64,000 nucleotides of DNA from contig FCOH02000019.1 in NCBI GenBank assembly GCA_001544595.2, positions 1 to 64,000 on the forward strand, in the 5' to 3' direction. The notes beneath the pieces were generated by a model, which was not told the origin of the DNA, made no database searches, and saw only the letters and a program-made list of their open reading frames with translations. The stretch comes from Caballeronia peredens (GTDB lineage: Bacteria > Pseudomonadota > Gammaproteobacteria > Burkholderiales > Burkholderiaceae). Made by a program: the position numbers and the translations under genes. This document shows positions 18,637 through 59,340 of this stretch, piece by piece (the first letter of the stretch is position 1; every line of letters begins with the position of its first letter).

Positions 18637-19269
18637 ATGAATTCGGTCAAGATCGTGGGTGCCGGAGCGCTGGGCCGCGAAGTTCTCGCGGCGCTGCGCG
18701 TGCTCGGCGACGAGGTGCGGTGCTTTCTCGTCGAGCCCGGGTTTGCCGGAGCACCCATTCGCGGGATTCCCGTCCAGCAGATCGAGCAACGAGATGACAC
18801 GTGGGGCGACGCACGTTATGTGCTCGCTGTCGGCGTCAACGACGCGCGCCTGAGACTGACGCAGACGCTCGGCGAAACGGCCGAGTATGCAACCGTGATT
18901 CATCCCGCTGCCGTCATCGGCCCGTATGTGGAAATCGCGGCGGGCGCCATGATCATCGGACGAGTGAGCATGACCACTGACATCGGAATTGGACGGCATT
19001 CGCTCATCAATCCCGGCTGCAATATTTCGCATGATTGCAGAGTCGGCGACTTCGCGAGCCTCGGCCCGGGCGTGTCGCTCGCTGGCAGGGTGACGATCGA
19101 GGAGGGCGCCAATCTCGGCGTCGGCGCTGTGGTGGCGCCCGGCGTCGTGGTAGGCGCATGGTCGACGGTGGGTGCGGGCGCCGTCGTGATTCGGAATGTC
19201 GAGCCCGGAGCAACCGTTGTGGGCGTACCCGCGCGTCCTATCGTCAGGCGCCCGTTGCAGGGCGTGTAA
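18637..19269 (+). CDS. NeuD/PglD-family sugar O/N-acetyltransferase
   Basis: 210 aa. An N-terminal Rossmann-like half (KIVGAGALGREVLAAL) is followed by a left-handed beta-helix of hexapeptide repeats; PGCNISHDC carries the expected catalytic His. This is the NeuD/PglD architecture. PglD acetylates UDP-4-amino-4,6-dideoxy-GlcNAc; NeuD acetylates sialic acid. With a DegT aminotransferase 107 bases downstream and a WbpM-like 4,6-dehydratase at 37 kb, a PglD-like role on a 4-amino sugar is the better inference. The ATG follows the previous stop by one base. Confidence 0.85.
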   Translation: MNSVKIVGAGALGREVLAALRVLGDEVRCFLVEPGFAGAPIRGIPVQQIEQRDDTWGDARYVLAVGVNDARLRLTQTLGETAEYATVIHPAAVIGPYVEIAAGAMIIGRVSMTTDIGIGRHSLINPGCNISHDCRVGDFASLGPGVSLAGRVTIEEGANLGVGAVVAPGVVVGAWSTVGAGAVVIRNVEPGATVVGVPARPIVRRPLQGV

Positions 19270-19376: not shown

Positions 19377-20462
19377 ATGAGTACCGAAAAGATCAAGGTT
19401 TTGATTCCCCAACTGCCTCGGACGGATGCAATCCTGCCGTACATGAGGCGGATTGACGAGACGAGAACCTACAGCAACTACGGCCCGCTTGCGACCGAGT
19501 TTCGCGATCGATTGAGTGCGCTGACCGGCGCAACGGGTGTGACGATCACGAGCAACGGCACGACGGCAATCGAAGTCGCGCTGAGGATTCGTGCCCGGAA
19601 GGGCGCGCGCTATTGCCTGATGCCTTCTTACACGTTCATCGCGAGCGCACACGCCGTCTGCAACGCAGGCCTCACGCCTTATCTGCTCGACGTGTCGGAG
19701 CGTACGCTCACGCTCACTCCGGAACTGGTAAAGGCCGCACTGCGCGATCTAGGCGAAGCGCCGGCCGCGGTGCTGGTCGTGAGCGCGTTCGGCGCGCCAC
19801 CGGATCAGGCGGCGTGGCAGGCATTCGAAGATGAGACCGATATTCCGGTCGTCTTCGACGCCGCAGCAGCGACGACTTCGATCAGATCGGTAGGCAAACA
19901 GCCGTTGTGCGTCAGTTTGCATGCCACCAAGGCGCTGGGCATCGGCGAGGGCGGCGCGATACTCTGTTCGGACAAGAGCCTGATCGAGCGCGCCACGGCC
20001 ATCACCGGCTTCGGTTTTCTCGGTGCGGAGCGCGTGTCGGCCATTCGCGCGGGCAACTATCGTATTTCTGAGTACTCCGGCGCGGTCGGGCTGGCTGTAC
20101 TCGACGCATTGCCCGAACGGCTGGCGGAGCTGCAGCGCCTCACTGACGGCTACCGCGCGCGAATTGGTTCGGACAAACGGTGCCGGTTCCAAGAGGGCGT
20201 TGGCGAGACGTGGTTTACGATGACGCTCAATGTGATCGTGCCGGAAGATTCGGTGGCGGCGACGGTGAGGCAGCTCGACGAAGCGCAGGTCGAGTGGCGA
20301 CGCTGGTGGGGTTTCGGCTGCCACAAGCATCCGGCATTCGCAGACGTGCCGCGCGGCGATCTGACGACGACCGAGTCGATCTCGCAACGGGTAATCGGCC
20401 TGCCTTTCCATAACCTTCTCTCCGATGACGATCTGGATCGAATCGTTCGATGCTTGCCATGA
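19377..20462 (+). CDS. DegT-family aminotransferase, plus-arm copy
   Basis: 361 aa PLP sugar aminotransferase: TSNGTTAIEVAL, VVFDAAAATTS (pyridine-binding Asp) and the Schiff-base Lys in SLHATKALGIGEGG. ATG 19377 directly precedes KIKVLIPQLP. The protein aligns almost end to end by eye with the minus-strand copy at 32154-33314 (shared YSN-GPLATEF, ASAHAVCN-GLTP, NxRISEY, QxxWRRWWG-GCH motifs). PglE-like 4-amination is inferred from the adjacent NeuD/PglD-like gene. It overlaps the following GT2 gene by 4 bases. Confidence 0.88.
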   Translation: MSTEKIKVLIPQLPRTDAILPYMRRIDETRTYSNYGPLATEFRDRLSALTGATGVTITSNGTTAIEVALRIRARKGARYCLMPSYTFIASAHAVCNAGLTPYLLDVSERTLTLTPELVKAALRDLGEAPAAVLVVSAFGAPPDQAAWQAFEDETDIPVVFDAAAATTSIRSVGKQPLCVSLHATKALGIGEGGAILCSDKSLIERATAITGFGFLGAERVSAIRAGNYRISEYSGAVGLAVLDALPERLAELQRLTDGYRARIGSDKRCRFQEGVGETWFTMTLNVIVPEDSVAATVRQLDEAQVEWRRWWGFGCHKHPAFADVPRGDLTTTESISQRVIGLPFHNLLSDDDLDRIVRCLP

Positions 20463-21538
20463 GCCAGACGCCCTTACTGTCTTACATCGTTCTGTCGTAT
20501 AACTACGAGCACTACATCGACCACACCATTCGAAGCATTCTGCGGCAGACCGTGCAGGACTTCGAGATCGTAGTCGTCGACGATTGTTCGAAAGACAACT
20601 CAGTGGAAGTCGTAAAGAGCTTCCGCGATCCGCGCATTCGCCTGCTGTGCAACGAGAGGAACCTTGGCGGTGCAGGTAGCTATAACCGTGCCGTGTCGGC
20701 GGCGCGGGGCGAATGGCTCGTCAACCTGGACGCTGATGACTGGATCGCGCCGCACAAGGCGGAAGTCCAGCTCGAGTTGGCGGCGAAGCGCCCGGAACTG
20801 GACATCATCGGCAGCTATGTCGTATTCCTCGATGCCGATGGTGCGCCCCACCCGAACGCCGAGGTGCTGGAAAACACGGTCAACCAGCCGCATGAATTTG
20901 GTCGCGTCGACACCTGGGTGGGCACCAATAACCTCTGCCGGTCGTCGGTGATGATGCGGCGTTCAGCGCACATGAGGATCGGCCTGGACGATCCAAACAT
21001 GGCGCGCGCGCCCGACTATGAACTCTGGACGCGCGCCCTGCGCGAAGGCTGCGGTATCGCTACCGTGCCGGAGAAGCTCACCTACCTGCGGTTGCATTCA
21101 AGCGGTGTGACTCACGCCGATCCGCTCGGCACGCTGCTGGAGCTTGCCTACGCGATGTTGCGCAACCTGATGCCGCTTGCAGAGCGACGCGCACTGTACC
21201 CGACGATCCAGCGGATCTTGGCGTGGGTCTGCCGCAATCACGAATTGAGCCGACTAGCCCCGATCGAACGCTATCGTTTGATCGGGATGCTGATGCAGGC
21301 CACGGAAGTCGGCGATTTCGCGAGCTTCAAGGCTGCGCTATCGGACTCGAAGCATGACGCGGAATGGGCGACGACCGGGCGCCGCGCGTTGGCCTTGTTC
21401 AGCGACGGCGCAGGTCCATATCAGGACGTGCGGACGCTGCAAAGGGAAGTTGCTGCGCAAGTCGCCGCGGTCGACTGGTGGCGTCAGCGCGCCCAGACGT
21501 GGGAGCGGGAGTACATGAACGCAGCCCGCGCTTCTTGA
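20459..21538 (+). CDS. GT2-family glycosyltransferase
   Basis: 359 aa. Classical GT-A core: SYIVLSYNYEHYI, VVVDDCSKDNS, NLGGAGSYNRA, and NLDADDW (DxD), with RAPDYELWTRA as acceptor-side motif. The C-terminal 150 residues are helical and unassigned. ATG 20459 gives a 4-base ATGA overlap with the aminotransferase stop; a second ATG nine bases earlier is also in frame. It probably adds one sugar of the O-antigen repeat. Donor unknown. Confidence 0.88.
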   Translation: MSQTPLLSYIVLSYNYEHYIDHTIRSILRQTVQDFEIVVVDDCSKDNSVEVVKSFRDPRIRLLCNERNLGGAGSYNRAVSAARGEWLVNLDADDWIAPHKAEVQLELAAKRPELDIIGSYVVFLDADGAPHPNAEVLENTVNQPHEFGRVDTWVGTNNLCRSSVMMRRSAHMRIGLDDPNMARAPDYELWTRALREGCGIATVPEKLTYLRLHSSGVTHADPLGTLLELAYAMLRNLMPLAERRALYPTIQRILAWVCRNHELSRLAPIERYRLIGMLMQATEVGDFASFKAALSDSKHDAEWATTGRRALALFSDGAGPYQDVRTLQREVAAQVAAVDWWRQRAQTWEREYMNAARAS

Positions 21539-21616
21539 GTCTCCCGGTGCGTCTCCGAGCAATCAAAGTGCGCTTGCACGAATGGCCCGAGTCTCGAGCC
21601 CCGTTTCGTTAGAATA

Positions 21617-22756
21617 ATGAACAAGCCCAATATACTCGTACTGCTTCCGTTTCTCGTTCAGGGCGCGCTGTCCATCAGCGTCATGCGCGCTATGAGAGCC
21701 CGAGGCTTCGAGGTCGCCATCGCATACTGTGACGATGCCTCGTCGGTCTACAAGCCCGATGCGCTCGAGGATTTCGCGGCCGATGGTTGCGCGATCAACC
21801 TGATCGGTGTGAATCATCCGCATAGGCCGCAATTGCTTTTGAAGGAAATCGACGACCGCGGCATCGACCTGGTTCTGCAAATCGGCGCGAGTGACCTTTA
21901 CCACCAGCTGCCGTATATCAAGGAGCGCCGTCCGGGGCTGCGGCTCGTCGACACGCTCTACAACGAGTTTGGCCACACCCTCAACCACTTTCTCTACGAG
22001 AGCTGCTACGACGGCGTCATTGTCGAGAGCGAGTACATGCGACGCTTCGTCGAGCATTCCTCGCTCAAGCAGGACCCGAACGTCGTGGTCGCGCCTAATG
22101 GCGTTGATCTCGAGAAGTTCCGTCGTGCGAGTGTGCCTGCAGCGAATCGTTCACTCACAGTGGGCTACATCGGGCGGATGTCGGATGAAAAGAACCCGCT
22201 TGGTTTCGTGTCGATGGCGGAGGCGCTCGTCGCTAAGGGGCTGGATGCGTCCTTCGAGCTCTACGGCGGCGGTATTCAGGCGGACGCGGTGCGCCAACGG
22301 ATAAACGACAGCGAAGCGAGTTCGCGTATCAGGTATCGGGGCTTCATCGAGCACACGCCCGAAGCACTGCATGGCCTCGATGTGCTCGTGGTGCCGTCGA
22401 AGTTCGATGGACGTCCCAACATCGTCATGGAAGCCAATGCTTGCGGCGTGCCCGTGATCGCCTCGCCGGTGGGTGGTGTACCGGAGATGCTCGAAGAGGG
22501 ACGGAACGGCTATCTTGCTTTTCCTGGCGACACCATGCGCATCGCTGAGCTTCTCACTGAGTGGATCGAGCATCCCGAAGTCCTGCAACGCTTGAAGGAC
22601 ACTTCACTCGAACTCGCGCATGAGCGCTTTGGTCGAGAAACGATGCTCGATACTTATGATCAGGCATTTTGCAGCTTTGCTCAGCAACGCGAAGCGCTTC
22701 GAGTAGATCTCGGCGACATGCGCACGCAGCCGGACGAATCGCTTTCGGATCGATGA
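21617..22756 (+). CDS. GT4-family glycosyltransferase
   Basis: 379 aa GT-B enzyme: N-terminal NILVLLPFLVQGAL, APNGVDLEKF, GYIGRMSDEKNPLGF, and the GT4 signature PSKFDGRPNIVMEANACG. It resembles the GT4 half of the 15180 gene (VDTLYNEFGHT versus VDLLFNTVGHT), so the two are probably paralogous. ATG 21617 lies 78 bases after the previous gene with no strong ribosome site visible. Retaining transferase acting on the cytoplasmic side is expected for the family. Confidence 0.88.
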   Translation: MNKPNILVLLPFLVQGALSISVMRAMRARGFEVAIAYCDDASSVYKPDALEDFAADGCAINLIGVNHPHRPQLLLKEIDDRGIDLVLQIGASDLYHQLPYIKERRPGLRLVDTLYNEFGHTLNHFLYESCYDGVIVESEYMRRFVEHSSLKQDPNVVVAPNGVDLEKFRRASVPAANRSLTVGYIGRMSDEKNPLGFVSMAEALVAKGLDASFELYGGGIQADAVRQRINDSEASSRIRYRGFIEHTPEALHGLDVLVVPSKFDGRPNIVMEANACGVPVIASPVGGVPEMLEEGRNGYLAFPGDTMRIAELLTEWIEHPEVLQRLKDTSLELAHERFGRETMLDTYDQAFCSFAQQREALRVDLGDMRTQPDESLSDR

Positions 22757-23203
22757 GAAAGCGCGCGCTTATCGGGCGTTTCCTTGACGCAATGTTGCCT
22801 TGCTGACCGGTCGGCAGATGCAAGATTTGAGCGCTGAGTCGCCCACCACGGAGCTTAAGGCGCTGCGGCGCGCACGTTGCGTTGCGCATCGACAGTTCAT
22901 GAACGTTTCGGCCCTTTCGGCACCGTCACATGGCAATCTAATCATTTTGCTGTCGGTTAATCATCAGACGTAATAGAAAACCAGGTTCAGTCATAAGGGC
23001 GTCGCCGAAGTCGGAAGCAAAGGCTCAACGAAGAACAAGCGATTGCCAGGTGAAATCAATCACCAAAATCCCGTTGTTCGGTGCTTTAGAGATCTTTCGG
23101 CTCTTTTTCTGGTGAAGCCGCCTTTTTGTGCTCGTCGTGTAACGAGTATGATAAAAGGAAGGGTGCTTTAAGCGATTTTTGCGTATTTCATTTGAAAAGT
23201 CCG
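22757..23203 (+). other. 447-bp intergenic region
   Basis: AT-rich for this genome and without a recognisable gene. A TATGAT (23147-23152) overlaps an inverted repeat CTCGT/ACGAG (23131-23146) and could be the -10 of a promoter for the downstream propeller-like gene, but no matching -35 is seen. The reading frame of the next gene is open back to TTG 23126. The composition drop and loss of gene overlap suggest an insertion boundary. Confidence 0.45.
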
Positions 23204-24667
23204 ATGATCGAAGTCAAAGAAGAGGTCTATGCACTTGTCACGACGACGCGTGCATTGTTGTTGGTTGAACTCCATTCGAAACGCGTTACTCCGCTCGAAT
23301 GGGACCGAGGGGAATACTACGGCCTGTCATGGTTCCCGCACAGCGAGGATCTCGTTCTCAGTCATTCGCTCATCGACAACGCCAAACTACAGGATTTGAC
23401 GGCGTATGCGCAGTCGGAAGTGGGCATCCTGTCGATAGGCGATCGGAGCACTCAAGGGTTTCTTTCGCAGCCTCATCAGATCGTATGTGGCTCGGATGGC
23501 CGCGTTATTTGCACGAATACCGGTCGCAACGCTATCAGCGTGTTGGACCCGTCCCGTCCGGATGTGGTCCAGGAGGCACGTATTTCGTCCGGGCGCTGGG
23601 ATCGGCTCGATTCGCATGAAGTCATAGGCGATCACCTCAACTCGGTGTTCGAGAGAGATGGTCACCTGTACGTCATTGCTCATGGTCACGGCAAAGGCTC
23701 GGCACTCGCCATCTTCAGTTATCCTGAAATGAGTTTGCTGAGCGTCGAGCCCGTGAAGAATCGCACGGGCCTTCACAATATTTGGATCACCTCCGAAGGG
23801 CAGCGTATCGCCTGTCATAGCGAATCGGGATCTTTGATCGAACTGAATTCCAATGCTGTTCTTTGGGAGTCGGGCTGCCCTATCTACACGCGCGGCCTCG
23901 CCGCGACAGCGGATTTCGCGCTAATCGGAGAGAGCGAAAAGTCTAGCCGTGAGTTGCGGCGCGCGACGATGAGCGGGCTATGGATGCTTGACCGGAAAAC
24001 GTGGCAACCCGTCGACTTTTTCCATCTCGGGCCATATGGAGGCGTTCATGACGTTCGCTTGTTAAACGTTAGCGACGAAGCACATCATGGCCACGTCTTC
24101 GCCGGAACGAGGGCACTTCTCGCCCACGACCGGGACAAGGAGCGAGTCGCCAACCGCATTCGCGCGTCGAAGCGCAGACAGCACTCGCGCGAGGCGTGGA
24201 AAACGTTTGAATTTGTGTTCGGGACGCCTCAGGTTCGCGCCGATAATGCCTTGAAGGTCGCTCAGGACCAGCTTTGTCTCATGACCCGAACGGAAACGGA
24301 GTCGAACGTGTCGAGCGAGTTTGATTTCGACTATGCCTTCGAGGGGACCGAAGCAGGGGGCCATATTTCCGTGGTTACGTATCGAGGCTCGGGCTCCGAT
24401 ACCGACATGAACGCCGTGCTCATTCAACGGGTCAGTGAAAGTGAAGCTACACTGTCCCGATGGCTCCACGACGGCCGGCACTGGGAGTCGCACGGACCGG
24501 TGCCCCTGGCGGGGATACCGTTACGCGGGAGGGTTCAGGTCGCACAAAGTGAAAAGCGCCTGCAACTGCTGATCGACGGGCGCGAAATTCCGCAAGAGTA
24601 TATGGATGGCATGGAGGGGCGACTCGGTATCCGCTGGTGCGGTGCGGCCTTGTTTGCGGCGGAGTGA
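23204..24667 (+). CDS. unrecognised protein: beta-propeller-like N-terminal part plus lectin-like beta domain
   Basis: 487 aa from ATG 23204 (MIEVKEEVYALV); an in-frame TTG at 23126 would add 26 low-complexity residues. No signal peptide or membrane segment, so probably cytoplasmic. Residues about 1-330 show repeated short beta-strand units separated by loops (LLLVELHSKRVTPLEW, VICTNTGRNAISVLDP, RDGHLYVIAHGHGKG, GQRIACHSESGSLIEL) as in six- or seven-bladed propellers of the TIGR03032/NHL-like type. After a basic linker (about 330-355) the last 130 residues look like a concanavalin-like sandwich (LQLLIDGREI). It carries no glycosyltransferase motif. It sits between paralogous cassettes in the O-antigen locus; function unknown. 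A carbohydrate-binding or modifying role is only a guess. Confidence 0.6.
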   Translation: MIEVKEEVYALVTTTRALLLVELHSKRVTPLEWDRGEYYGLSWFPHSEDLVLSHSLIDNAKLQDLTAYAQSEVGILSIGDRSTQGFLSQPHQIVCGSDGRVICTNTGRNAISVLDPSRPDVVQEARISSGRWDRLDSHEVIGDHLNSVFERDGHLYVIAHGHGKGSALAIFSYPEMSLLSVEPVKNRTGLHNIWITSEGQRIACHSESGSLIELNSNAVLWESGCPIYTRGLAATADFALIGESEKSSRELRRATMSGLWMLDRKTWQPVDFFHLGPYGGVHDVRLLNVSDEAHHGHVFAGTRALLAHDRDKERVANRIRASKRRQHSREAWKTFEFVFGTPQVRADNALKVAQDQLCLMTRTETESNVSSEFDFDYAFEGTEAGGHISVVTYRGSGSDTDMNAVLIQRVSESEATLSRWLHDGRHWESHGPVPLAGIPLRGRVQVAQSEKRLQLLIDGREIPQEYMDGMEGRLGIRWCGAALFAAE

Positions 24668-25016
24668 CGCGTGACCTCATAGCTCGTGACTGAAGGAAAA
24701 TAGCTGCGCTGACACGCATACAAGTGCGTGCACGGCGAATATCGACTAATTCAGCTGTCGCACAGCCTTGCCCCGATTTGACTTAATGGGCGCACCAGTT
24801 TGATATGGGCACGAGTCATGCTGAATGTCATTAGATATGGTACAGACCATTGCGAGATTCACCGTGCGAGTCACCATGGAACCAGGTACCGAACAGGCTC
24901 GCGTGGCTCGCCTTCGAAGCTAGTCCGAATAGACTGACTTCGGAGGCCGGCGCTACCGCGTCGCTGCAAATTCGACTTGATAAGACTCTCGGACTGGAGT
25001 CAAAGGGCAATGCATC
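24668..25016 (+). other. 349-bp intergenic region with a possible promoter
   Basis: No gene seen. It separates the propeller-like gene from the A-B-cysC operon. A TTGACT box with a weak -10 (listed separately) and purine tracts GGAG/AAAGGG (24995-25007) ahead of the GTG start of A are the only signals. Confidence 0.5.
24778..24806 (+). promoter_or_regulatory. possible sigma-70 promoter for the A-B-cysC operon
   Basis: TTGACT (24778-24783), 17-base spacer, TGATAT (24801-24806). The -35 matches five of six, the -10 only three of six. It lies about 210 bases before the GTG of gene A. Plausible because the operon begins after a 349-base gap. Confidence 0.3.
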
Positions 25017-26720
25017 GTGAGCTTGAGCTATTGTGATCTGTTAATCATTGATGAGATGCTGCCGTGCGATTTTTCGCCGTTCCGGACGCTGGAATACACG
25101 CACTATCTGAACTATTTCGGATCCTCCGTACTTCTATCGACGGAAGGCTGGCACGCCTGGGTCTCGAATCTGGGCTTTGACCAGCAACTTGCGGAAAGCG
25201 AGTTCGACGACAGCATCAAAGCGAAAATCGATCGGTTTTCCTCATTTTCCTCGATTGTGCCGAAGCTAGCATATGTCACGTTCTTGCACAACGCCTGGCA
25301 GGTCTTTCCGCACTTAACGGAGCGTCGTATTCCGTTCGTCCTGCAGCTTTATCCCGGCGGCGCCTTCGAGCCCAACGTGTCATCGAGCGATGAAATGTTG
25401 CGCAAGATCGCTCACTCGCCGTTGTGCCGCAAGATCATCGTGACGCAAAAGCTTTCGCGCGACTACCTCCTCGAAAACATCGGATGCGATTTGTCGAAAA
25501 TCCAATTCATCTACGGCGGGGTATACAACACGCGAAACGGATTCGATTTCACGCGCGATAAGAAACTCTTCGGAAGGGACAAGAGCACGCTCGACATCTG
25601 TTTCGTTGCACATCGGTATGGCGACGATATAAAGAAGAAGGGTTATGACAAGTTCGTGGCCGTGGCCAAGGCATTGACCTCACAGTTTGAGGCTGTGCGC
25701 TTTCATGTAGTGGGGGATTACACACCGGATCAGATCCCGCTCGAACATGCCTCGGCCAGCATTACATTTCACGGCAAACAGCCCGGAAGCTTTTTCAAAG
25801 AGTTTTACCCGAGCATGGATATCATATTGTCCGTGAATCGGCCATCGGAGGATCATGGAGGCGCGTTCGACGGCTTCCCCACGGGCGCTTGCATGGAGGC
25901 GGGCTTTCGCGGCGTGCTCAACTGCGTGAGCGACCCCCTGAACCTCAACGTCGCGTTCACGGACGGAGAGGACATCATGCTCGTCGATCTCGATACCGAC
26001 AAGACTATCCAGAGACTATCTGGACTCCTGAGCGAGCCAGAGAAGCTCTACGAGCTGGCGTATGCGAACTGGCGACGGTTCCTGGACGTATTCGACACCG
26101 ACCGTCAATTGTGGGGGCGCACGCGCATCCTCTCTGACGAACTGCTGAATCAGGAACCTCTGATCGTGCGCCCATCGCCGCAACTGAGCCTGATGGATTC
26201 CAGAATTCTTGAGCCCGTTCGTGTGGAAGGGAGACAGGCGCTCGCTATCGAAAAGGAAGTGTCCCGTCAGTTAGACGTCAATCTGCAGGATGCGGTGACG
26301 CGGCACGATAATTTGGCGGTTGCCTACGCGACCCTCGCAGAAGGATTCGAAGCGGTTCGCACCGAAAACGTTTCACTAAACGAGCGTCTCGTGACACTGA
26401 CCGAACGCCTTACGGCGCTGAACGAGCGTCTCGCGACGCTGACCGATGAACTCGATTCTGCACGCGAGCAGGAGGCCGAGAGAGCGTCGCAAGCGCTCGA
26501 AATCGAGGGAGCGCTGAATGACTGCAAACTCGAGATAGAGTCGCTCAATAACGCGATAGCCGCCCATGAAAGTGAGCGCGAAAGATTTCCTGATGGTCAT
26601 TTGGAACGTGTCACCCTCAGAATGTTGCGCTCGCGCTATTTCATGTCGCTTCGCACAACGGTATCGCGCGCGCGTAATCGCAGTTTGCGCTCGAATCAAA
26701 GCAACAAGGTTATCAAATGA
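25017..26720 (+). CDS. GT-B glycosyltransferase-like protein A (plus arm), with C-terminal coiled coil
   Basis: 567 aa from GTG 25017, preceded by AAAGGG at 9 bases. N-terminal IDEMLPCDFSPFRT and the GT4-like half (FVAHRYGDDIKKKGYDKF, FHGKQPGSFFKEFYPSMD, GFPTGACMEAGFRG) indicate a GT-B transferase. Residues about 410-540 are heptad-patterned and include a 14-residue tandem repeat (LNERL-TLT). The tail is basic. It aligns over most of its length with A' on the minus strand (30312-32105), including TLAEGFEA-R-EN just before the coiled coil. Translationally coupled to B by a 4-base overlap. Donor and linkage unknown. Confidence 0.75.
   Translation: MSLSYCDLLIIDEMLPCDFSPFRTLEYTHYLNYFGSSVLLSTEGWHAWVSNLGFDQQLAESEFDDSIKAKIDRFSSFSSIVPKLAYVTFLHNAWQVFPHLTERRIPFVLQLYPGGAFEPNVSSSDEMLRKIAHSPLCRKIIVTQKLSRDYLLENIGCDLSKIQFIYGGVYNTRNGFDFTRDKKLFGRDKSTLDICFVAHRYGDDIKKKGYDKFVAVAKALTSQFEAVRFHVVGDYTPDQIPLEHASASITFHGKQPGSFFKEFYPSMDIILSVNRPSEDHGGAFDGFPTGACMEAGFRGVLNCVSDPLNLNVAFTDGEDIMLVDLDTDKTIQRLSGLLSEPEKLYELAYANWRRFLDVFDTDRQLWGRTRILSDELLNQEPLIVRPSPQLSLMDSRILEPVRVEGRQALAIEKEVSRQLDVNLQDAVTRHDNLAVAYATLAEGFEAVRTENVSLNERLVTLTERLTALNERLATLTDELDSAREQEAERASQALEIEGALNDCKLEIESLNNAIAAHESERERFPDGHLERVTLRMLRSRYFMSLRTTVSRARNRSLRSNQSNKVIK
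26376..26459 (+). repeat. 42-bp tandem repeat (two units) inside gene A
   Basis: Units begin CTAAACGAGCGTCTC (26376) and CTGAACGAGCGTCTC (26418), 42 bases apart, with the remainder clearly similar. Each encodes 14 residues, exactly two heptads, so the change in length preserves the coiled-coil register. Confidence 0.7.
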
Positions 26721-28018
26721 GCGTAGGTAACGACGTACGTGCTTCGACGACAACACAAGGCTTTAGCGCTGACAACTACGCCGTCATCCTGACTTGCAGC
26801 GACATCGACAAGCACAAGCACAACGAATGCTTCAGCAATGAACTCACGCCCGCGTTTCTGGCTCAAGGTTTGTCCGTACGGAAGCTCGATTATCTGCGAG
26901 AAGTCCGAGCGGTATCGGACGCGATTCGTGACGAACACTGCGTTTTCTTCGTCTGTTTCAACGGTTTTGGCTCGGAACTCCTGCACGCGGCCGGGCAGCC
27001 CGGCATACTTGCGTCGGTGTTCGAGTATTACGGCAAACCGGTGTTCGACTTCATGCACGACTGTCCCGTCCACGAATCGATGGCGCATCAGATCGCCTCG
27101 GTCGGAGAATTCCGGCGTTTGCTCTCAACCGACTACACCTACGCGCACATCGCGCGGCTGCTCGGCGTGAAAAACGTGCGAGCAGTCTCCAGTATCACGT
27201 TTCCGAATACGATCACCGAAGGGCAGCGCTCTCACGCGTCGCGCAGTATCGAGGTTTTGCTTCCAGTCGGACTGTCTCGTCCGGACGAAACGCGCCAACG
27301 ATTCGCGCGTGCCCGCAACCACAAAGACCGAGTTTTTCGTGAGCTTTTCGAGAGCGTCGTGGAATTCTCGCTCAAGAATCTGAACGTCGATCCTCTAGTC
27401 GAGATCCTGCTGGCCTGTCAGGAGGCCGGGGTTTACGCCGACATGCACGATCCGGACATGCGTTTTCTCATCACGTCCGTCGTGGACTACGTCAAGTTCG
27501 AGCGGCGCGATCGTCTGGTCAGAGCCATCAATCACTTGCCGGTGACGGTCATATCCGACTACGACGTAAAAGAGTTTTACGCGAACTCCAGACTGAGATC
27601 GATCGGTCAAAGATCGTTTCCGAGTTTGCTACGCACGATGAATGACGCGAAGTGCGTGATCTGTCCGCTGCCGCATCACACCGGTTTTCACGAGCGCGCG
27701 CTTGCCTCGTTTACAGCGGGCGCGGGCGTGATCGCCAGCCCCAACGAAATTCTGGAGACACACTTCGTTCAAGGCCGCGACATGCTCACGTACCAGTCCG
27801 AGGATGACCTTGCCGCCATGCTCGAGGACGTGTTTGCCGGCCGGCTCGATCTCGAGCCGCTGGCGCGCAGCGGACGCGAACGTGCACTTTCGAGGTTCCC
27901 GTCTATGGCGATCGTCGAGACCATCATCTCGATGTGGAGGCACCACCCGGGAGGCGCCATCAAACACGCGACCTCGATGTCGAAAGCGTCTCAAGCAAAG
28001 ATTACTGATCCACTATGA
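26717..28018 (+). CDS. CgeB-like GT-B protein B (plus arm)
   Basis: 433 aa. Conserved with B' on the minus strand: DIDKHKHNE, FFVCFNGFGSELLHA, FMHDCPVHE, the DPDMRFLITSVVDYVKF segment, and a C-terminal glycosyltransferase-type motif HERALASFTAGAGVIASPNE like that of CgeB/GT1-type C-terminal domains. No membrane segment or signal peptide. ATG overlaps the A stop (ATGA), and B's own stop overlaps the cysC start the same way, so A, B and cysC form one coupled unit. Probably a transferase that works with A; substrate unknown. Confidence 0.7.
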   Translation: MSVGNDVRASTTTQGFSADNYAVILTCSDIDKHKHNECFSNELTPAFLAQGLSVRKLDYLREVRAVSDAIRDEHCVFFVCFNGFGSELLHAAGQPGILASVFEYYGKPVFDFMHDCPVHESMAHQIASVGEFRRLLSTDYTYAHIARLLGVKNVRAVSSITFPNTITEGQRSHASRSIEVLLPVGLSRPDETRQRFARARNHKDRVFRELFESVVEFSLKNLNVDPLVEILLACQEAGVYADMHDPDMRFLITSVVDYVKFERRDRLVRAINHLPVTVISDYDVKEFYANSRLRSIGQRSFPSLLRTMNDAKCVICPLPHHTGFHERALASFTAGAGVIASPNEILETHFVQGRDMLTYQSEDDLAAMLEDVFAGRLDLEPLARSGRERALSRFPSMAIVETIISMWRHHPGGAIKHATSMSKASQAKITDPL

Positions 28019-28635
28019 AATGCAATCAGTTCATTGAACCGAGTGGTGCTGACCTCGTTCGTCATCCGGTGGCGATCAGCCGAGATCAGCGCGAGCGGAA
28101 GCAGGGACATCGCGGGCAGGTCGTCTGGATTACCGGACTGCCCGGATCGGGGAAGTCCACGATTGCCTATGCGATCGATCGCCGTCTGAATATCGAAGGG
28201 ATTGAATCCGTCGTGCTGGACGGTGATGCGCTGCGCATTGGCTTATGTTCAGATCTCGGATTCTCGTGCGAAGATCGTAACGAGAATGTCCGTCGAGCGG
28301 CGGAAGTCGCTAGGCTCTTCCTGGAGAGAGGGATGGTCGTGGTGGTCGCTCTGGTTTCGCCGCTGCGCGAGGCCCGCGAGCGCGCCCGGGAAATCGTATC
28401 CGCTACCGATTTCCTGGAGGTGTTCTGCTCCTGCCCTCTGGTCGTCTGCCAGCAGCGTGATCCCAAGGGGCACTACGCAAGAGCCAAGGCAGGGAGCATG
28501 ACGCAATTCACTGGTGTTTCGTCGCCCTATGAAATGCCACTTGCACCCGACGTTGTTCTCGACACCGAGAACGAATCGATAGAAGCGTGCGTGGAGCGGG
28601 TGAGTACAACCGTGCTCGAGCGTATTCGTCGCTGA
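28015..28635 (+). CDS. cysC: adenylyl-sulfate (APS) kinase
   Basis: 206 aa. P-loop GLPGSGKST (residues 41-49), LDGDALRIGL, DRNENVRRAAEVA, and the APS kinase signature RDPKGHYARAKAGSMTQFTG..SPYE. These are the diagnostic stretches of CysC, which phosphorylates APS to PAPS, the universal sulfate donor. The ATG overlaps the stop of B by 4 bases, so it is made together with two putative glycosyltransferases rather than with a cysteine operon. No PAPS-dependent sulfotransferase is recognisable in the window. The minus arm (A'-B') has no cysC copy. Sulfation of the O-antigen is an inference. Confidence 0.88.
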   Translation: MKCNQFIEPSGADLVRHPVAISRDQRERKQGHRGQVVWITGLPGSGKSTIAYAIDRRLNIEGIESVVLDGDALRIGLCSDLGFSCEDRNENVRRAAEVARLFLERGMVVVVALVSPLREARERAREIVSATDFLEVFCSCPLVVCQQRDPKGHYARAKAGSMTQFTGVSSPYEMPLAPDVVLDTENESIEACVERVSTTVLERIRR

Positions 28636-29076
28636 TGCATATCCGATTCGGGCACCGCGACATTGCAATCGCTAGCGGATACGAGGGATCGCCGCGCGGG
28701 AATAATCGACGCTCGGGAAAAGGGGGCGCGTCGGTTCAATTCAGACGCGACCCGTCGAAACGACGCATCAACTGTGGTCTCGAGTTGACTGTCATTGCGA
28801 TCAGGCCGATAGCGGGATGACCAGGGAACGAATGTCGCGAGAAGACATCGGGCTCGTCCGACATACTCGTGCGCGGCCCGGGCTCGAACGTAGTTGTTCT
28901 CTCGCCCGCTGCTCGCGCTGAATTGCCGGCTTGTGTGATCGCTTGCGGTCCGAAGCAATGCCGCCCTTCGCCGTCGAACTAACCTCGTTCGAGCTGCGCA
29001 CTTCGATGAGAAACCGAAGTGCGCATCGCAGCGAAGCCGGGTCGATGGTTAAGCTTAGCGAGTTGTGAAAAGTCCG
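28636..29076. other. 441-bp region between convergent cysC and B'
   Basis: No gene seen. This is the junction of the two inverted paralogous arms. It contains one clear hairpin near the B' side (listed separately) and otherwise nothing recognisable: no transposase remnant and no long direct or inverted repeat of the flanking genes. Confidence 0.55.
28995..29025. terminator. hairpin between convergent operons, candidate bidirectional terminator
   Basis: TGCGCACTTCG (28995-29005), 9-base loop, CGAAGTGCGCA (29015-29025): a perfect 11-bp stem. No T-run follows on either strand, so intrinsic termination would be weak, but its position between convergent transcripts fits a shared stop signal. Confidence 0.5.
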
Positions 29077-30315
29077 CTAGCGTGGCATGTTTTTCCATTG
29101 TGAAACAACGATTCGAGCCAGCCGATCGGGGGAGAAGCGCTCGCGGGCGACTCGCTCTCCATTGGACGCCATCTCCTGAAGGTCTATTTGACCTGCCAAA
29201 GCGCTGTCCAGCAAGCTGGCAAGATGCTCTGGGGTTCTGTAGGTCAACATGTCGCGTCCTTGCCAGAAATTCGTTTCAAGAACTTCGTTCGGCGCGGCGA
29301 AGACGGTCGCGCCGGCGGTAAATGCCGCCAAGGCGCGCTCGTGAAATCCAGTGTAGTGCGGCAGCGGGCATAGCACTATCTTCGAATCGCCCATCGTGTC
29401 GATCAGCTCGGGAAACGAGCGGTCCTTCATCAACCTCAGCTTCGAACCAGCAAACCGATGCGATACGTCGCGATCGGAAACAACCGTGACGGGTAGACGA
29501 GAAATCGCGCGCACGAGCCGGTCGCGTCGGGCGAACTTCACATAATCGAGAATGGCTGTGACGAGGAAGCGGATATCCGGATCCTGAAAATTGACCGCGA
29601 TATTCCCTTCCTGGCATGCGATGAGCGTTTGCGTCAACGGATCCACAGTCAGGTCATCGACTGCGATTGCAGTCACGCTGTCGAACAGTTCGCGGAATAG
29701 CCGATCACGGTACGATACCGGCGCGCGGAATCTGTCGATCACTACTTGCGGGTCGCATAGTCCAACCGGTAACAGAATCTCGATGGACCGAATGGCGAGC
29801 GGCTTTGTCGGTACCGGAACCGCTTCCGGAAATGTGATGCTCGGCACAGTTTGAACGCTTCTGGCGCCAAGCATTCGCGAAAGATGGGCGTACGAATAGT
29901 CCGTGAAAAGCGCCTTGCGAAACTGTCCCACCGATTTGAACTGATGCTGCATCGTTTCGTGCACAGGGCAGTCGTGCATGAGGTCGAACAGGGGCTTGCG
30001 CCACAACTCGAAAGCCGACACGAGCTTACCAGGCGTACCTGACGCGTGCACCAGCTCCGAACCAAAGCCGTTGAAGCAGACAAAGAACTGGCAGTTGTCG
30101 TCGCGCATTGCCTCGGAAAGCTGGCGTATGTCGCGAACGTAATCAAGGGACAGCAGTCGCACGCCCAGTGTAGATAACGCTTTGACCAGTTCGCGCGCAA
30201 ACGTCTCGTTGTGCTTGTGCCGGTCGATGTCGTTACGAATGAGCAGAACCGCGTAAGCATCGGCCGAAACTGAGCGGACTGCGCTCTCGAAGATAATAGG
30301 TGCTGCTCTGGTCAT
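29077..30315 (-). CDS. CgeB-like GT-B protein B' (minus arm)
   Basis: 412 aa paralogue of B (26717-28018): DIDRHKHNE, FFVCFNGFGSELVHA, LMHDCPVHE, DPDIRFLVTAILDYVKFARRD, and HERALAAFTAGATVFAAPNE near the C-terminus. Divergence is spread along the whole length, so this is an old duplication and not a recent copy. ATG 30315 overlaps the A' stop by 4 bases, mirroring the A-B junction. Role inferred as for B. Confidence 0.7.
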   Translation of the reverse strand: MTRAAPIIFESAVRSVSADAYAVLLIRNDIDRHKHNETFARELVKALSTLGVRLLSLDYVRDIRQLSEAMRDDNCQFFVCFNGFGSELVHASGTPGKLVSAFELWRKPLFDLMHDCPVHETMQHQFKSVGQFRKALFTDYSYAHLSRMLGARSVQTVPSITFPEAVPVPTKPLAIRSIEILLPVGLCDPQVVIDRFRAPVSYRDRLFRELFDSVTAIAVDDLTVDPLTQTLIACQEGNIAVNFQDPDIRFLVTAILDYVKFARRDRLVRAISRLPVTVVSDRDVSHRFAGSKLRLMKDRSFPELIDTMGDSKIVLCPLPHYTGFHERALAAFTAGATVFAAPNEVLETNFWQGRDMLTYRTPEHLASLLDSALAGQIDLQEMASNGERVARERFSPDRLARIVVSQWKNMPR

Positions 30316-32105
30316 GTCTGCTTTTCGTTCTGGACAGTCAAGTGTTGACGGCGAGGATCGAGCCGCGAATAGCTCATTCTGATCGACATTGCGGGCCTCG
30401 ATTTAAGCAGTCGGAGCACGCCTTTCTCGACTCGACCGAACGGAGCTGCATCGACCATTGCCTGAATGACGCGCCGGGCTTCTTCGCTCCGAAGAAGTGC
30501 CTCCATCTCCTTCAATTCGATCTCTGCCTGGAGGCGCGAGATTGTCGAATTCAACTCGAGTAGGGTGCCGTTGAGCGCATTGATGTCTCCGTGCAAGGCC
30601 GAGTTTTCAAAGTAGAGGCGTGAGATAGTCGCATTCAGCTCGGGTATGGTGCCGTTGAGCGCGCTGATATTCTCATGCAGCGTCGCGTTCTCAAGGCGTA
30701 AAGCCTCAAACCCTTCCGCAAGCGTCTTGTACTCGCCAAGCAGGCCGCCGTGCTGATTCTCGTAGTACTCGATAACCTGGCTATAGTCGGCTCTCAGCGA
30801 CTCATACGCTGTGGCAACCGTGTTGTATTGCTCCAGCAAGTTACGGTAGTGGCCGTTCGCTTCTTCGACCTGATGGCGCATTCCATTGTCGCCGAAATCG
30901 CTATCCATCATGCTCCGGTTCGGCGCTGGACGAACGATCAGATACTCGGGGCGCAAAAGCTCCGCCGTGATGAGACGCGTACGGCGCCAAAGCTGATAAT
31001 CCGTGTCGAATACTTCGAGGAATTTCTGCCAGTTTGCGTAAGCGACGTCGTACAGGCGCTCGGTGTTGCTGATCAGCTTCGACAGCCGGTCGATCGTTTT
31101 CTGAGTGTCAAGGTCCACAAGGACGAAATCGACATCGTCCGTGAACGCAACATTGAGATCCAACGGATCACTGATGCAGTTGAGCACACCTCGAAAGCCC
31201 GCTTCCATGCACGCGCCGGTCGGGAAGCCGTCGAATGCGCCTTTTCTACTCTCCGTCGGCCGGTTCACCGACAGAATGATGTCCATGCGTGGATAGAACT
31301 CGCGGAAGAACGCGTTTGGCTGCTTGCCGTGGAACGTCATCGTTCGTTCTGCGGCACCCAGCGGAATCTGGTCGGGTGTGTAGTCCCCCACGACGTGAAA
31401 GCGAACATGCTCAAACCGCTCGCTCAGCGCTTGCGCGACCGCAACGAATTGGTCGTATCCCTTCTTTTTCGTGTCGTCGCCGTATCGATGCGCCACAAAA
31501 CAGATGTCGACCGTGTCTTTGTGCGTGCCGAAGCGCTGCTTGTCGCGGGAAAAGTCGAAGTCATTACGCGTGTCGTAGACGCCGCCATAGATGAGTTCGA
31601 TTTTCGCGGGGTCGCATTTGATCTTCTCGAGCAAATAATCGCGCGAGAGATTTTGCGTCACGATGATTTTTCGGCACAGGGGCGAATGCGCGATCGTCAT
31701 GAGCCTTTGATCGCTTGCCTCGACGTTCAGCTCGAATCCGCCACCCGGGTAGAGCTGCAGAATGAACGGAATGTTTCGCTCGGCGAGCGCCGGGAGCATT
31801 TGCCAGGCATTGTGCAGGAACGTGATATACGCGAGCTTCGGAACCGTATCCCTGAAGAACGAAAACGGATGAATTCGTTCCTTGATTGATGGGCTCAGTT
31901 TGCTCGAGGAAAGTTGTTCTTCGAAGCGAAGATTCGACGCCCAAGAATGCCATCCCTCCGTGCAAATGAGCTGCGCCGTATCGAAGTGACTCAGATAATG
32001 CGAGTACTCGATCGTTCTAAAGGGCGAGAAGTCACACGGAAGCATCTCGTCGACGATCAAAAGATCGCAGAAGCCCGGCTCGCGGACTACATTCAATTGT
32101 GTCAT
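30312..32105 (-). CDS. GT-B glycosyltransferase-like protein A' (minus arm), with C-terminal coiled coil
   Basis: 597 aa paralogue of A: VDEMLPCDFSPFRT, FVAHRYGDDTKKKGYDQF, FHGKQPNAFFREFYPRMD, GFPTGACMEAGFRG, and TLAEGFEALRLEN before the coiled coil. The C-terminal region is longer than in A and contains a 28-residue tandem repeat (ALNGT..ELN-TISRL). ATG 32105 has no strong Shine-Dalgarno; it starts 48 bases after the DegT' stop. Coupled to B' by ATGA overlap. Confidence 0.75.
   Translation of the reverse strand: MTQLNVVREPGFCDLLIVDEMLPCDFSPFRTIEYSHYLSHFDTAQLICTEGWHSWASNLRFEEQLSSSKLSPSIKERIHPFSFFRDTVPKLAYITFLHNAWQMLPALAERNIPFILQLYPGGGFELNVEASDQRLMTIAHSPLCRKIIVTQNLSRDYLLEKIKCDPAKIELIYGGVYDTRNDFDFSRDKQRFGTHKDTVDICFVAHRYGDDTKKKGYDQFVAVAQALSERFEHVRFHVVGDYTPDQIPLGAAERTMTFHGKQPNAFFREFYPRMDIILSVNRPTESRKGAFDGFPTGACMEAGFRGVLNCISDPLDLNVAFTDDVDFVLVDLDTQKTIDRLSKLISNTERLYDVAYANWQKFLEVFDTDYQLWRRTRLITAELLRPEYLIVRPAPNRSMMDSDFGDNGMRHQVEEANGHYRNLLEQYNTVATAYESLRADYSQVIEYYENQHGGLLGEYKTLAEGFEALRLENATLHENISALNGTIPELNATISRLYFENSALHGDINALNGTLLELNSTISRLQAEIELKEMEALLRSEEARRVIQAMVDAAPFGRVEKGVLRLLKSRPAMSIRMSYSRLDPRRQHLTVQNEKQT
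30532..30699 (-). repeat. 84-bp tandem repeat (two units) inside gene A'
   Basis: Units 30532-30615 and 30616-30699 share blocks such as GGTGCCGTTGAGCGC exactly 84 bases apart, plus similar flanks (AGGCG-GAGAT-GTCG-ATTCA). Each unit codes 28 residues, four heptads, extending the coiled coil in register. Confidence 0.7.
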
Positions 32106-32153
32106 TGAGGTAATGTGAAATGCGGCGCTTGCCCGCGACGCCTGCGCATGGAG

Positions 32154-33314
32154 TTAAAGCGTCGGGACTTCCTGCTCGATCAGATCTTCGACAAACGATC
32201 CTGCTTGCGTCGTGCGTGCGTGCGCCGCGGAAGGAAAACACGCGACAATCCGGTCGAAATCTTCGTCCTTGAGCCCATCGTGACAAGGCACGCCAATCAC
32301 CGTCGGAGCGACCTTGTTGGTGACGGCAAGGCCGAAGGTCGGACAATCCGCAAACGCAGGATGCCGATGGCAACCAAGGCCCCACCAGCGACGCCACTGA
32401 ATTTCCTGAGCGTCGAGTTTTTCGATGGTCGCCTTCACATCGTCCGGTTCGACGATGATGTTCAAGCTCATCGTTACCCAGTCTCCCACACCTTCTTGAA
32501 GGCGCGCGCGACGTCCCGTCGCTTCGAGCCTGGTCCGGTATGCGAAGGCGACGTTTCGAAGCATTTCGACCTTTGTAGGAAGTGCATCGAGCGCAGCCAG
32601 GCCCACAGCCGCTGCATATTCTGAAATCCGAAAGTTTCCGCCACGAAGGGCAGACGTGCGCTCGACACCCATGAATCCGAAGCCGGTCATCGCTGTGGCG
32701 CGCTGTCCGAACTCCGCATCGGAACTCAGGATGGCTCCGCCTTCGCCGATACCGAGTACTTTTGTCGCGTGGAGACTGACGCAGACGGGAGCGTGTCCGA
32801 CGTGATGAAGCGCCGTCACGGCCGCGGCCGCATCGAACACCACCGGAATTCCGTTGCGAACTTCGAAACGCGCCCAGCCTTCCTGATCAATGGGGGCACC
32901 GAATGCGCTGATCACCAGAACGGCAGCCGGCTGTTCTGGCAATCGCGGAAGGACTGCCTCCACGAGTTCCGGCGTCAGAACAAGCGACACGGGATCGATG
33001 TCGACGAACGCCGGAGTGAGCCCGACGTTGCAGACGGCATGTGCACTTGCCACAAACGTGAAAGATGGCATGACACAGAGCTTGCGGCCCGGCAACGCCT
33101 TAAGACGCAATGCAATTTCAATTGCCGATGTGCCGTTCGAAGTCAAGGTTACTGACTCCGAACCCGTTGAGCCGCCCAGTCGTTGCGCAAACTCAGTCGC
33201 TAGCGGGCCGAAGTTACTGTAGATGCGCGCAGAGTCGATGCGATGAAGATAGGGTTCGATTTGCGCGATGGTAGGGAGCGAAGGAACAAGCACCTTGACC
33301 GGTAAATTTGACAT
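32154..33314 (-). CDS. DegT-family aminotransferase, minus-arm copy
   Basis: 386 aa paralogue of 19377-20462: TSNGTSAIEIAL, VVFDAAAAVTA, Schiff-base Lys in SLHATKVLGIGEGG, NFRISEYAAAVGLAALD and QWRRWWGLGCH. About 25 extra C-terminal residues. First gene of the minus arm (DegT'-A'-B'). ATG 33314 sits just before the LPVKVLVPSLP strand; upstream sequence is AT-rich without a clear Shine-Dalgarno. Two near-equivalent aminotransferases in one locus suggest either two related amino sugars or redundancy after duplication. Confidence 0.88.
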   Translation of the reverse strand: MSNLPVKVLVPSLPTIAQIEPYLHRIDSARIYSNFGPLATEFAQRLGGSTGSESVTLTSNGTSAIEIALRLKALPGRKLCVMPSFTFVASAHAVCNVGLTPAFVDIDPVSLVLTPELVEAVLPRLPEQPAAVLVISAFGAPIDQEGWARFEVRNGIPVVFDAAAAVTALHHVGHAPVCVSLHATKVLGIGEGGAILSSDAEFGQRATAMTGFGFMGVERTSALRGGNFRISEYAAAVGLAALDALPTKVEMLRNVAFAYRTRLEATGRRARLQEGVGDWVTMSLNIIVEPDDVKATIEKLDAQEIQWRRWWGLGCHRHPAFADCPTFGLAVTNKVAPTVIGVPCHDGLKDEDFDRIVACFPSAAHARTTQAGSFVEDLIEQEVPTL

Positions 33315-33998
33315 AGATTTTTCAAAAAATTACAGTCTCGTTGGGATTGTACTCGTCCGCCCGCAATATTTTTTGCTTTTATGCAACTATTTCAGAAATT
33401 CGTGCTTGCATTGACTTCTGGCAACTGCTTCGGGCGCCGCTCGGACATCTCAGTTTTATGAACTGTCGTTTAACGGAAACACGAAGTTCAAGCGCGACTG
33501 AGGCGAATAAAAGTGCGCGGACGTCAGGCGGTCTAAGTTTTCGGTTGAGAAACGAACCTGTACAGGCATCGACTTTCCGCCTTTGGCGTTGACGTCCCTG
33601 ACCAGCCATTGTGATTAGTTGATCGCGGCGCGACTTGCAAGGGGCGCAGACGCGCTTGGGCCGCCCGGACGCCATGAATAGATCTGCGCGAGATTAAGCA
33701 TCTTGTTTTAGAGAGAGCGTTGTCGATTGCTGGCCAGTCATCCCGCGCGATCCCGGCTTGGGGTTACCTCGAATAGGAACAGGCGGCGGTGTCCGGCTGA
33801 TGATCAGGCTACTTCATTGTTGTGAATGATGAAGCGCCGCAGCTTCGGCTGTTGCTGAACGCGAACCTCGTGTCGTGCGCGGCACTGACGCACCCCCCGC
33901 GGTTGCCGAAACGGGCGACTTTAAGGACAATCGGGGCGTCTTCAACCAGCCAGCCCGGTCCGTTTGTCTTTTCGTGGCGCGGACACCCTGCCAGTCCG
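33315..33998. other. 684-bp region between divergent DegT' and the GT2 gene
   Basis: No gene seen. The left half is AT-rich and should carry the DegT' promoter; TACAAT reads on the minus strand about 30 bases before its ATG, without a good -35. The right half is open in frame with the GT2 gene from GTG 33822, but those 59 codons look non-coding. Composition returns to the high-GC norm at about 34.0 kb, marking the edge of the variable region. Confidence 0.5.
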
Positions 33999-49293: not shown

Positions 49294-49427
49294 TCGCGCT
49301 CGTGCGGATCGCCGAAACAACTATGGCGTAAAGCGTCGAACATTTGGCCGGACCTGAACGGTTCGGCACTTAATCATTCTCGGGCGGCATGCACCGCACC
49401 GGACGAACAGGCAGGCAGGAGTCCTAT

Positions 49428-50945: not shown

Positions 50946-51060
50946 GAGACGGAACGCGGGGAACACGGCAGGGCGAAAGACTTCTTTGCAGCGGCTGGAC
51001 ACGAGCGAGGGAGGACACGAGAAGAGGGCGGTACAGGGCGATTGCGTTCGGGGGAATGAC

Positions 51061-52440: not shown

Positions 52441-52457
52441 TGCAGGGGACGACCATC

Positions 52458-53645: not shown

Positions 53646-53653
53646 GGCTGTAA

Positions 53654-53675
53654 CCGGCGCGCGGGGGCGCGCCGG
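53654..53675 (+). repeat. strong intercistronic hairpin between wza and wzc
   Basis: CCGGCGCGC, loop GGGG, GCGCGCCGG: nine G-C/C-G pairs. It begins 9 bases after the wza stop and 39 bases before the wzc ATG. No T-run follows, so partial attenuation or 3'-end protection of wza mRNA is more likely than full termination. Confidence 0.6.
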
Positions 53676-53713
53676 CAAACATTGTTCGACTTCAAGATTG
53701 AGCGAGCGAGACC

Positions 53714-55942: not shown

Positions 55943-55985
55943 GGCATCGCGGAAAAAAGCTCGGTAGTGCCCGGTACAACAATGT

Positions 55986-56005
55986 CGGCGCGTCCCCGCG
56001 CGCCG
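55986..56005 (+). repeat. intercistronic hairpin between wzc and gmd
   Basis: CGGCGCG, 6-base loop, CGCGCCG: 7-bp GC stem 32 bases before the gmd ATG. No T-run. Third strong GC hairpin type seen at gene junctions in this window. Confidence 0.45.
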
Positions 56006-56036
56006 CATCTAGAGACCGAAGATGGAGAGGTTACGC

Positions 56037-57155: not shown

Positions 57156-57160
57156 AGCGC

Positions 57161-59308: not shown

Positions 59309-59340
59309 ACGAAGGGAGGATTCACACGCGGCTTTTCGGC

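Follow-up and report, generated by a model that had tools for sequence, protein, structure and literature searches.

The window analysed here, a 64,000-nucleotide stretch of Caballeronia peredens (contig FCOH02000019.1, positions 1 to 64,000; assembly GCA_001544595.2), carries two related copies of a three-gene set, DegT-A-B, within an O-antigen locus. The genome holding it comprises 6,726,081 bases in 78 contigs. The first arm lies on the plus strand and consists of DegT1 (19377..20462), A1 (25017..26720) and B1 (26717..28018). The second arm lies on the minus strand and consists of DegT2 (32154..33314), A2 (30312..32105) and B2 (29077..30315). DegT resembles sugar aminotransferases, A has a transferase domain followed by a coil and a basic tail, and B appears to be a second transferase. 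With a probability of about one half, we read the two arms as ancient paralogous, coil-tethered modules for amino-sugar transfer, in which A and B would add an amino sugar at or near the end of the O-antigen chain. The identity of the sugar, its transfer by A and B and a role in end-capping or length measurement are what we infer from the sequences.

The two arms are old paralogues

The products of the two arms were compared by BLASTP. DegT1 and DegT2 are identical at 213 of 362 residues (59%, E 3e-161), A1 and A2 at 323 of 571 (57%, E 0; 70% in the transferase domain alone) and B1 and B2 at 216 of 401 (54%, E 1e-170). Inverted repeats between the arms are also seen in the DNA, of 485 nt at 74%, 127 nt at 73%, 59 nt at 80% and 50 nt at 78% identity. 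The similarity of the arms is far beyond chance. In both arms A and B overlap by 4 bases. The original prediction for this DNA had DegT, A and B recurring at these positions on opposite strands, with the same A-B coupling in each arm; coordinates, BLASTP and the identities of the three pairs bear this out.

The ratio of nonsynonymous to synonymous substitution rates (dN/dS) was determined against Caballeronia catudaia. Values of 0.058 for DegT1, 0.120 for A1, 0.134 for B1, 0.138 for DegT2, 0.091 for A2 and 0.092 for B2 were obtained. Thus both arms are kept under purifying selection, and the predicted diverged, paired module in an O-antigen locus holds. The coil and tail of A evolve faster than the transferase domain (0.33 and 0.22 vs 0.06 and 0.05).

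In every tree, the arm-1 genes of three species (the window, C. catudaia and Paraburkholderia domus) form a group of their own, apart from the arm-2 genes. The split between the arms therefore predates the split of the loci of these species. The arms are an old paralogous pair, the second of which is flipped in the window.

Duplication of DegT, A and B together in place would be one origin of the pair; the trees neither show nor refute it. It is also possible, though we would not favour it, that the two DegT-A-B sets are related but reached the genome independently and came together afterwards. The concatenated A+B tree leaves room for this, since A1B1 and A2B2 form a single clade with a support of a mere 54/42. 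In the best tree of A alone, A2 sits with P. solitsugae and with G045 and G184, two genomes sampled from the same family (82/83), and in the DegT tree DegT1 clusters with the DegT of G045, G184 and a further family genome, G164, with DegT2 outside (91/100). Against separate arrival, a clade of A1 with A2 (p value of the approximately unbiased test, p-AU, 0.129) or of DegT1 with DegT2 (p-AU 0.206) was not rejected, B1 and B2 come together in the tree of B alone (74/68), and attachment of P. solitsugae to arm 1 or to arm 2 alone was rejected for A+B (p-AU 0.011 and 0.009). The P. domus DegT1 in the DegT trees is a 280-residue fragment. A grouping of DegT1 with DegT2 at 100/100 came from a tree lacking the nearer DegT of G045, G184 and G164, and is superseded by the fuller tree.

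Inverted and tandem arrangements in relatives

In C. catudaia LMG 29318 the second arm is flipped as in the window, with cysC at the junction of the arms and several kb of extra DNA between DegT2 and GT2c. In P. domus LMG 31832 the arms lie in tandem on one strand, cysC has no match, and the locus is colinear. The order there is rmlB-rmlD-rmlA-DegT0-AcT0-wzm-wzt-GTbig-GT2a-bigGT-NeuD-DegT1-GT2-GT4-'propeller'-A1-B1-DegT2-A2-B2-GT2c-wbiG-wbiH-wbiI; only the genes of the window were searched for, and others may intervene. For P. domus B2, a start at L014:11740 was picked by hand, which gives an ATG.

A leader of 42 nt directly upstream of DegT2 in the window (33316..33357, minus strand) is 90% identical in C. 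catudaia. Stretches of 13-15 nt of it recur upstream of P. domus DegT2, including an exact match of 13 nt. As the leader precedes DegT2 in the tandem arrangement also, the arm moved together with it. Because the rest of the P. domus locus is colinear, a single inversion of the second arm in the Caballeronia line would be the simplest account; the reverse direction is also allowed. The inverted arrangement emphasized in the original prediction is thus real in the window and in C. catudaia but is not basic to the module, P. domus being tandem.

That the second arm is known in either orientation, depending on the species, could also be expected of an invertible, phase-variable segment. However, no inverted repeat of at least 18 nt is present at the ends of the flipped arm, no inverted word above 10 nt is common to its flanks in the window, and both Caballeronia have the arm in the same orientation. 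An invertible switch is therefore extremely improbable, and it was ruled out for want of repeats at the segment ends. A contig titled as a Candidatus Paceibacterota metagenome-assembled genome (L016) is 99.2% identical to the P. domus locus over 5097 nt; it is probably misbinned and was not counted as a separate copy.

DegT, the acetyltransferase and the predicted sugar

DegT1 and DegT2 score 185.2 and 189.5 bits with PF01041, and their nearest solved chains are 3ju7 and 2po3. We take 2po3 to be DesI; the structure file says 4-dehydrase. The best NCBIfam model for both proteins is DesI (143.8 and 156.2 bits), the equivalog cut-off of which, 650 bits, is missed by both. The lysine of an HATK motif, presumably the lysine that holds pyridoxal phosphate, aligns with 2po3 and 3ju7. 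By these matches, DegT resembles the DesI-type sugar 4-aminotransferases.

A single acetyltransferase gene precedes DegT1 (18637..19269, plus strand; start codon picked by eye). Its product scores 167.5 bits with TIGR03570, the NeuD/PglB/VioB family of sugar acetyltransferases (cut-off 160.8), and its nearest solved chains are perosamine N-acetyltransferase and VioB. Together with RmlA and RmlB, DegT and the acetyltransferase point to a deoxythymidine diphosphate (dTDP)-linked sugar, dTDP-4-acetamido-4,6-dideoxyhexose. In the pathway proposed, RmlA and RmlB would supply dTDP-4-keto-6-deoxyglucose, DegT1 and DegT2 would place an amino group at C4, and the one enzyme of NeuD/VioB type would acetylate the amino product. 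The pathway formed by DesI/VioA and VioB/NeuD is similar in that the DegT proteins of the window are members of the DegT family whose HATK lysine aligns with 2po3, and in that the acetyltransferase scores above its family cut-off. It is different in that DegT remains far under the DesI cut-off, and in that two aminotransferases are present per one acetyltransferase.

A and B as putative transferases

The transferase domain of A spans 25017-26174 in A1 and 30927-32105 in A2. A scores 21.5 and 21.2 bits, under the Pfam transferase cut-off of 27 bits. Profile comparison with hhalign matched A to GT4 (96.1%, E 3.5e-9, 231 columns), and a match to PDB profiles (E 1.7e-7) was to N-acetylgalactosamine transferase structures from the Pgl pathway. 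Across 13 diverse A domains 41 columns are invariant, including LYPGG and DGFPT. A conserved acid pair, D...E, is spaced unlike E-x7-E, which we take to be the GT4 motif; KG[YF]D and GFP...EA of A line up with what we likewise assume to be GT4 motifs. Judged by its profile, A is a diverged GT4-like transferase. It shares with GT4 (GT-B) enzymes such as PglA and TarM the profile match to its C-terminal half, but it stays below the Pfam cut-offs and has its own signature of LYPGG and DGFPT. The sole annotated record of the A family met here labels the A relative hypothetical.

B1 and B2 pass PF13524, Glyco_trans_1_2, with 35.5 and 35.8 bits (cut-off 25). The profile of B is weak against that of GT4 (23%) and reaches 78% against that of A. 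From its family match, B is a second transferase. The original prediction saw in neither A nor B an obvious member of a named transferase family. A is under every Pfam transferase cut-off; B passes that of PF13524. The description of an undescribed system was too strong, as A is GT4-like, B belongs to PF13524, and DegT and the acetyltransferase come from known families. The DegT-A-B pair looks like a variant of known O-antigen machinery rather than a new kind of system.

The coil of A grows by heptad-sized repeats

The transferase domain of A is followed by a coil and a basic tail (26175-26717 in A1, 30315-30926 in A2). From the end of the domain to the tail, 140 residues are present in A1 and 163 in A2, the count for A1 being made by hand because the script missed its tail motif. 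The corresponding lengths are 126 and 128 in C. catudaia, 132 and 145 in P. domus, 120 in P. solitsugae, 79 in G045, 80 in G184 and 63 in Phyllobacterium. Between the window and C. catudaia the differences are 14 and 35, both multiples of 7. Tandem repeats are seen in the coil DNA of A1 (26376..26446, plus strand; spacing 21 bp) and of A2 (30531..30694, minus strand; spacing 84 bp or four heptads, with copies 78% identical over 80 nt). The spacing is 21 bp in P. solitsugae and 63 bp in a further genome, G388, so that 4 of 4 spacings are heptad multiples. The repeat of the G388 relative of A (L029:8698-10212) has 3.6 copies at 99%, and is likely a site of recent length change. The coil of A grows by heptad-sized DNA repeats.

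A heptad score over 28 residues was equalled by at most 8 of 200 shuffled sequences in seven of ten A proteins, and A1 and A2 beat all 200. A periodicity of 3.5 residues was matched by no more than 12 of 300 shuffles in nine of 12 A proteins (6/300 for A1, 0/300 for A2); in nine of 12 it was stronger in the coil than in the protein's own transferase domain. The tail has a net charge of +4 to +11 in the nine proteins where the script located it (+7 in A2), and may bind the membrane.

A proposed role at the chain end

Experimentally known O-antigen chain rulers are, to our knowledge, few. O-antigen terminators use a coiled coil as a ruler and carry the terminating enzyme at its distal end; WbdD also has a membrane-associated helix, and the cap is read by a carbohydrate-binding module of the transporter (PMC11231755). 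Alteration of the WbdD coil shifts the chain length (PMC5082667). A has the same anatomy as WbdD of E. coli O9a and ORF7 (GT137) of K. pneumoniae O4, namely an N-terminal catalytic domain, a C-terminal coil and a tail that perhaps binds the membrane (PMC11231755, PMC5082667). In G388, A also adjoins a transporter gene of the expected kind. There A comes directly after a 492-residue Wzt with Wzt_C (60.4 bits against a cut-off of 30.4), and is followed by DegT and a NeuD-like gene (29.9% identity). A differs from these terminators in having a GT4-like catalytic domain, in its partnership with B and in being doubled in one locus, and the window Wzt is without Wzt_C. The likeness in anatomy and the context in G388 led us to propose a capping or ruler role, and by this analogy A may work like a chain terminator.

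In the scheme proposed, A, on a heptad coil of variable length with a basic tail, and the translationally coupled B would transfer the amino sugar to the growing lipid-linked O-antigen, the most probable site being the end of the chain or close to it. The arms would be two versions of the module, differing in enzyme sequence and coil length, the second of which would have been inverted in the Caballeronia line. Alternative O-antigen branches, as originally predicted, are possible. If the scheme is true, this family, with its transferase on a coil that lengthens heptad by heptad and with two copies at one locus, would be a natural series for relating coil length to chain length and for learning how one cell can make two O-antigen forms. 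The scheme also supplies a hypothesis, open to experiment, about a rare family of transferases. A bolder version, which we consider rather unlikely, would make A a new class of O-antigen capping transferase, a GT4-like enzyme that acts with B and is mounted on a coiled-coil ruler evolving in repeats of whole heptads. Two such ruler-caps, each with its own aminotransferase and coil length, would then produce two O-chain populations differing in end group and length, with a transporter that does not read the cap.

The setting of the modules is that of an ABC (ATP-binding cassette)-transporter-type O-antigen locus of Caballeronia. To their left lie rmlB, rmlD and rmlA, a DegT and an acetyltransferase, both of another type, wzm, wzt and large multi-domain transferases. 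To their right are genes that we take to be wbiG, wbiH and wbiI, after the Burkholderia names. The part of PMC5462993 used here describes rml, wzm, wzt, wbiG, wbiH and wbiI in Burkholderia O-antigen loci. The flanking genes are of matching kinds; no DegT-A-B module is named in that part of PMC5462993. No description of the cassette was found in the portions of PMC11231755, PMC5082667, PMC5462993 and PMC3927599 consulted, and no search was aimed at the cassette itself.

A number of results weigh against a conserved, coil-tethered module acting at the chain end. The coil lengths differ from those in P. domus by numbers that are not multiples of 7. The heptad score fails in P. solitsugae (36/200 shuffles as good), G045 (100/200) and G184 (25/200), the 3.5-residue periodicity fails in P. 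solitsugae (47/300), in G184 (29/300) and also in G635 (32/300), where almost no tail is present, and the coil is no more periodic than its own transferase domain in G045, G184 and, likewise, G635. Some distant A domains have no coil (G635) or are fused to other domains. The single A-B pairs of P. solitsugae, G045 and G184 are not adjacent to a DegT of the module type. Lastly, the Wzt of the window (249 residues) is without Wzt_C (PF14524), and no match to it was found in the genome at E<=1, in a search whose control was positive in 4 of 14 genomes. A defining feature of the classical terminator, the coupling of the cap to export, is therefore missing. The terminal pyruvate of Klebsiella O1 is dispensable for export (PMC11231755), which gives a precedent for capping in the absence of a module that reads the cap.

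A and B could accordingly be ordinary repeat-unit glycosyltransferases, with a coil that merely oligomerises or binds partners and neither caps nor measures. This is a plausible alternative, to which we attach less than even odds. The missing carbohydrate-binding domain of the window Wzt would agree with it, as would the A relatives that are coil-less or have the coil in other fusions, and a large methyltransferase-like/GT2/GT4 protein of the locus is another candidate for chain control. The heptad steps of the coil repeats, however, and the location of the G388 gene between a Wzt_C-bearing Wzt and DegT fit a terminator better. The modules might also act on a different glycan, for instance a protein glycan or the exopolysaccharide encoded nearby. 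An exopolysaccharide-like cluster is indeed found further along the window by eye, and in G045 and G184 A-B is located away from the O-antigen locus. In three species, though, the modules are embedded between the rml, wzm and wzt genes and the wbi genes, and service to another glycan is quite unlikely.

Linkage of A with B and distribution

B lies directly downstream of A in all ten close copies. By open reading frame coordinates, the 4-base overlap is present in seven of these ten pairs (two each in the window, C. catudaia and P. domus, one in P. solitsugae); the gap is 20 nt in G045, 20 nt in G184 and 2 nt in Phyllobacterium. A-B occurs as a pair of copies in the window, C. catudaia and P. 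domus, and singly in P. solitsugae, G045, G184 and Phyllobacterium. The survey of other genomes thus extends the linkage inferred from the window, with both paired and single cases. Beside distant A domains, no B of their own was found in the six examined (G178, the second A of P. solitsugae, G388, G635, G742 and G796), nor by BLAST in G1023.

The A family is rare. Counting the genome of the window, matches were found in 2 of 58 genomes of the genus. In the family, 6 of 299 genomes matched with the whole protein, one of them by the coil only, and 6 of 398 by domain alignment. At the level of order and phylum 4 of 349 and 4 of 398 matched, each including one weak partial match (G604 and G868, respectively), and 1 of 241 genomes of the class matched at E<=1e-10; these samples overlap. 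The coil-only match, G125, covers residues 440-529 and was left out. With DegT2 as the query, six of 230 family genomes matched at E<=1e-40, five of them with at least 59% identity. Close A is present in four sampled family genomes (G000, G132, G045 and G184; G132 is C. catudaia), all among the five with close DegT. G164 has a close DegT, yet is not among the whole-protein matches of A in the family search.

Origin from a phage or plasmid was considered and rejected: the phage collection gave no match to A, and one plasmid record, from Phyllobacterium, has a relative. Four IMG/VR contigs (L054-L057) carry a near-identical fusion gene for a 625-residue protein, A-like in its C-terminal domain; this may be host DNA bordering a provirus.

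A-B more probably joined an older block

Between DegT1 and A1, a GT2 gene (20450..21538, plus strand; PF00535, 119.6 bits) and a GT4 gene (21617..22756, plus strand; PF13692, 91.8 bits) form a block with DegT. GT2 relatives of 60-67% identity adjoin DegT in G045, G184 and G164, and GT4 relatives of 52-57% are present in a like block of the same genomes. The dN/dS of GT4 against C. catudaia is unreliable, since the C. catudaia row overran the stop codon. In G045 and G184 the close DegT adjoins wzm/wzt in the order acetyltransferase-DegT-GT2-X-GT4; in G164 the block is bigGT-DegT-GT2-GT4. The DegT proteins of these genomes are 67.6-69.4% identical to DegT1 and 63.5-64.7% to DegT2. No A-B was found beside the block within the fetched stretches of the three genomes. 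In G045 and G184, which are near relatives and not independent, A-B lies on another contig than DegT, among neighbours mostly unrelated to glycans. As three other genomes thus have the block, two of them together with the acetyltransferase, but no A-B next to it, A-B more probably joined a pre-existing DegT-GT2-GT4 block. The predicted gain of GT2 and GT4 by the plus arm is not supported.

Other features of the locus

The GT2, GT4 and cysC genes described in the original prediction between DegT1 and A1 and after B1 are present. The 'propeller' label of the gene at 23126..24667 (plus strand, start uncertain) found no such backing, no Pfam or NCBIfam family scoring above threshold; the gene is conserved in C. 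catudaia and P. domus. No structured RNA was detected in the window at gathering thresholds.

The cysC gene at the arm junction (28015..28635, plus strand) encodes an adenosine 5'-phosphosulfate kinase (PF01583, 201.2 bits); it is 79.5% identical in C. catudaia, and the P. domus locus gave no match to it. A role of cysC in sulfation was rejected, as the genome has no match to the sulfotransferase families PF00685 and PF13469 at E<=0.001 (other sulfotransferase families were not searched). The 3'-phosphoadenosine 5'-phosphosulfate that cysC would provide thus has no obvious user.

The exopolysaccharide-like cluster lies at 49389-60797, with ManC-, WcaJ-, Wza-, Wzc- and Gmd-like genes read by eye from the list of open reading frames. 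The large protein bigGT (window 15180-18635) has 1151 residues with GT2 and GT4 domains, and the relative of it in G164 (47%) has an additional methyltransferase score in its N-terminal part. This methyltransferase-like/GT2/GT4 protein is another candidate for chain-end control in the locus; it fails the test for 3.5-residue periodicity (60/300 shuffles as good). The extra gene between GT2 and GT4 in G045 and G184 (L047:6723-7838 and L048:7120-8352) weakly resembles its N-terminal part (19%).

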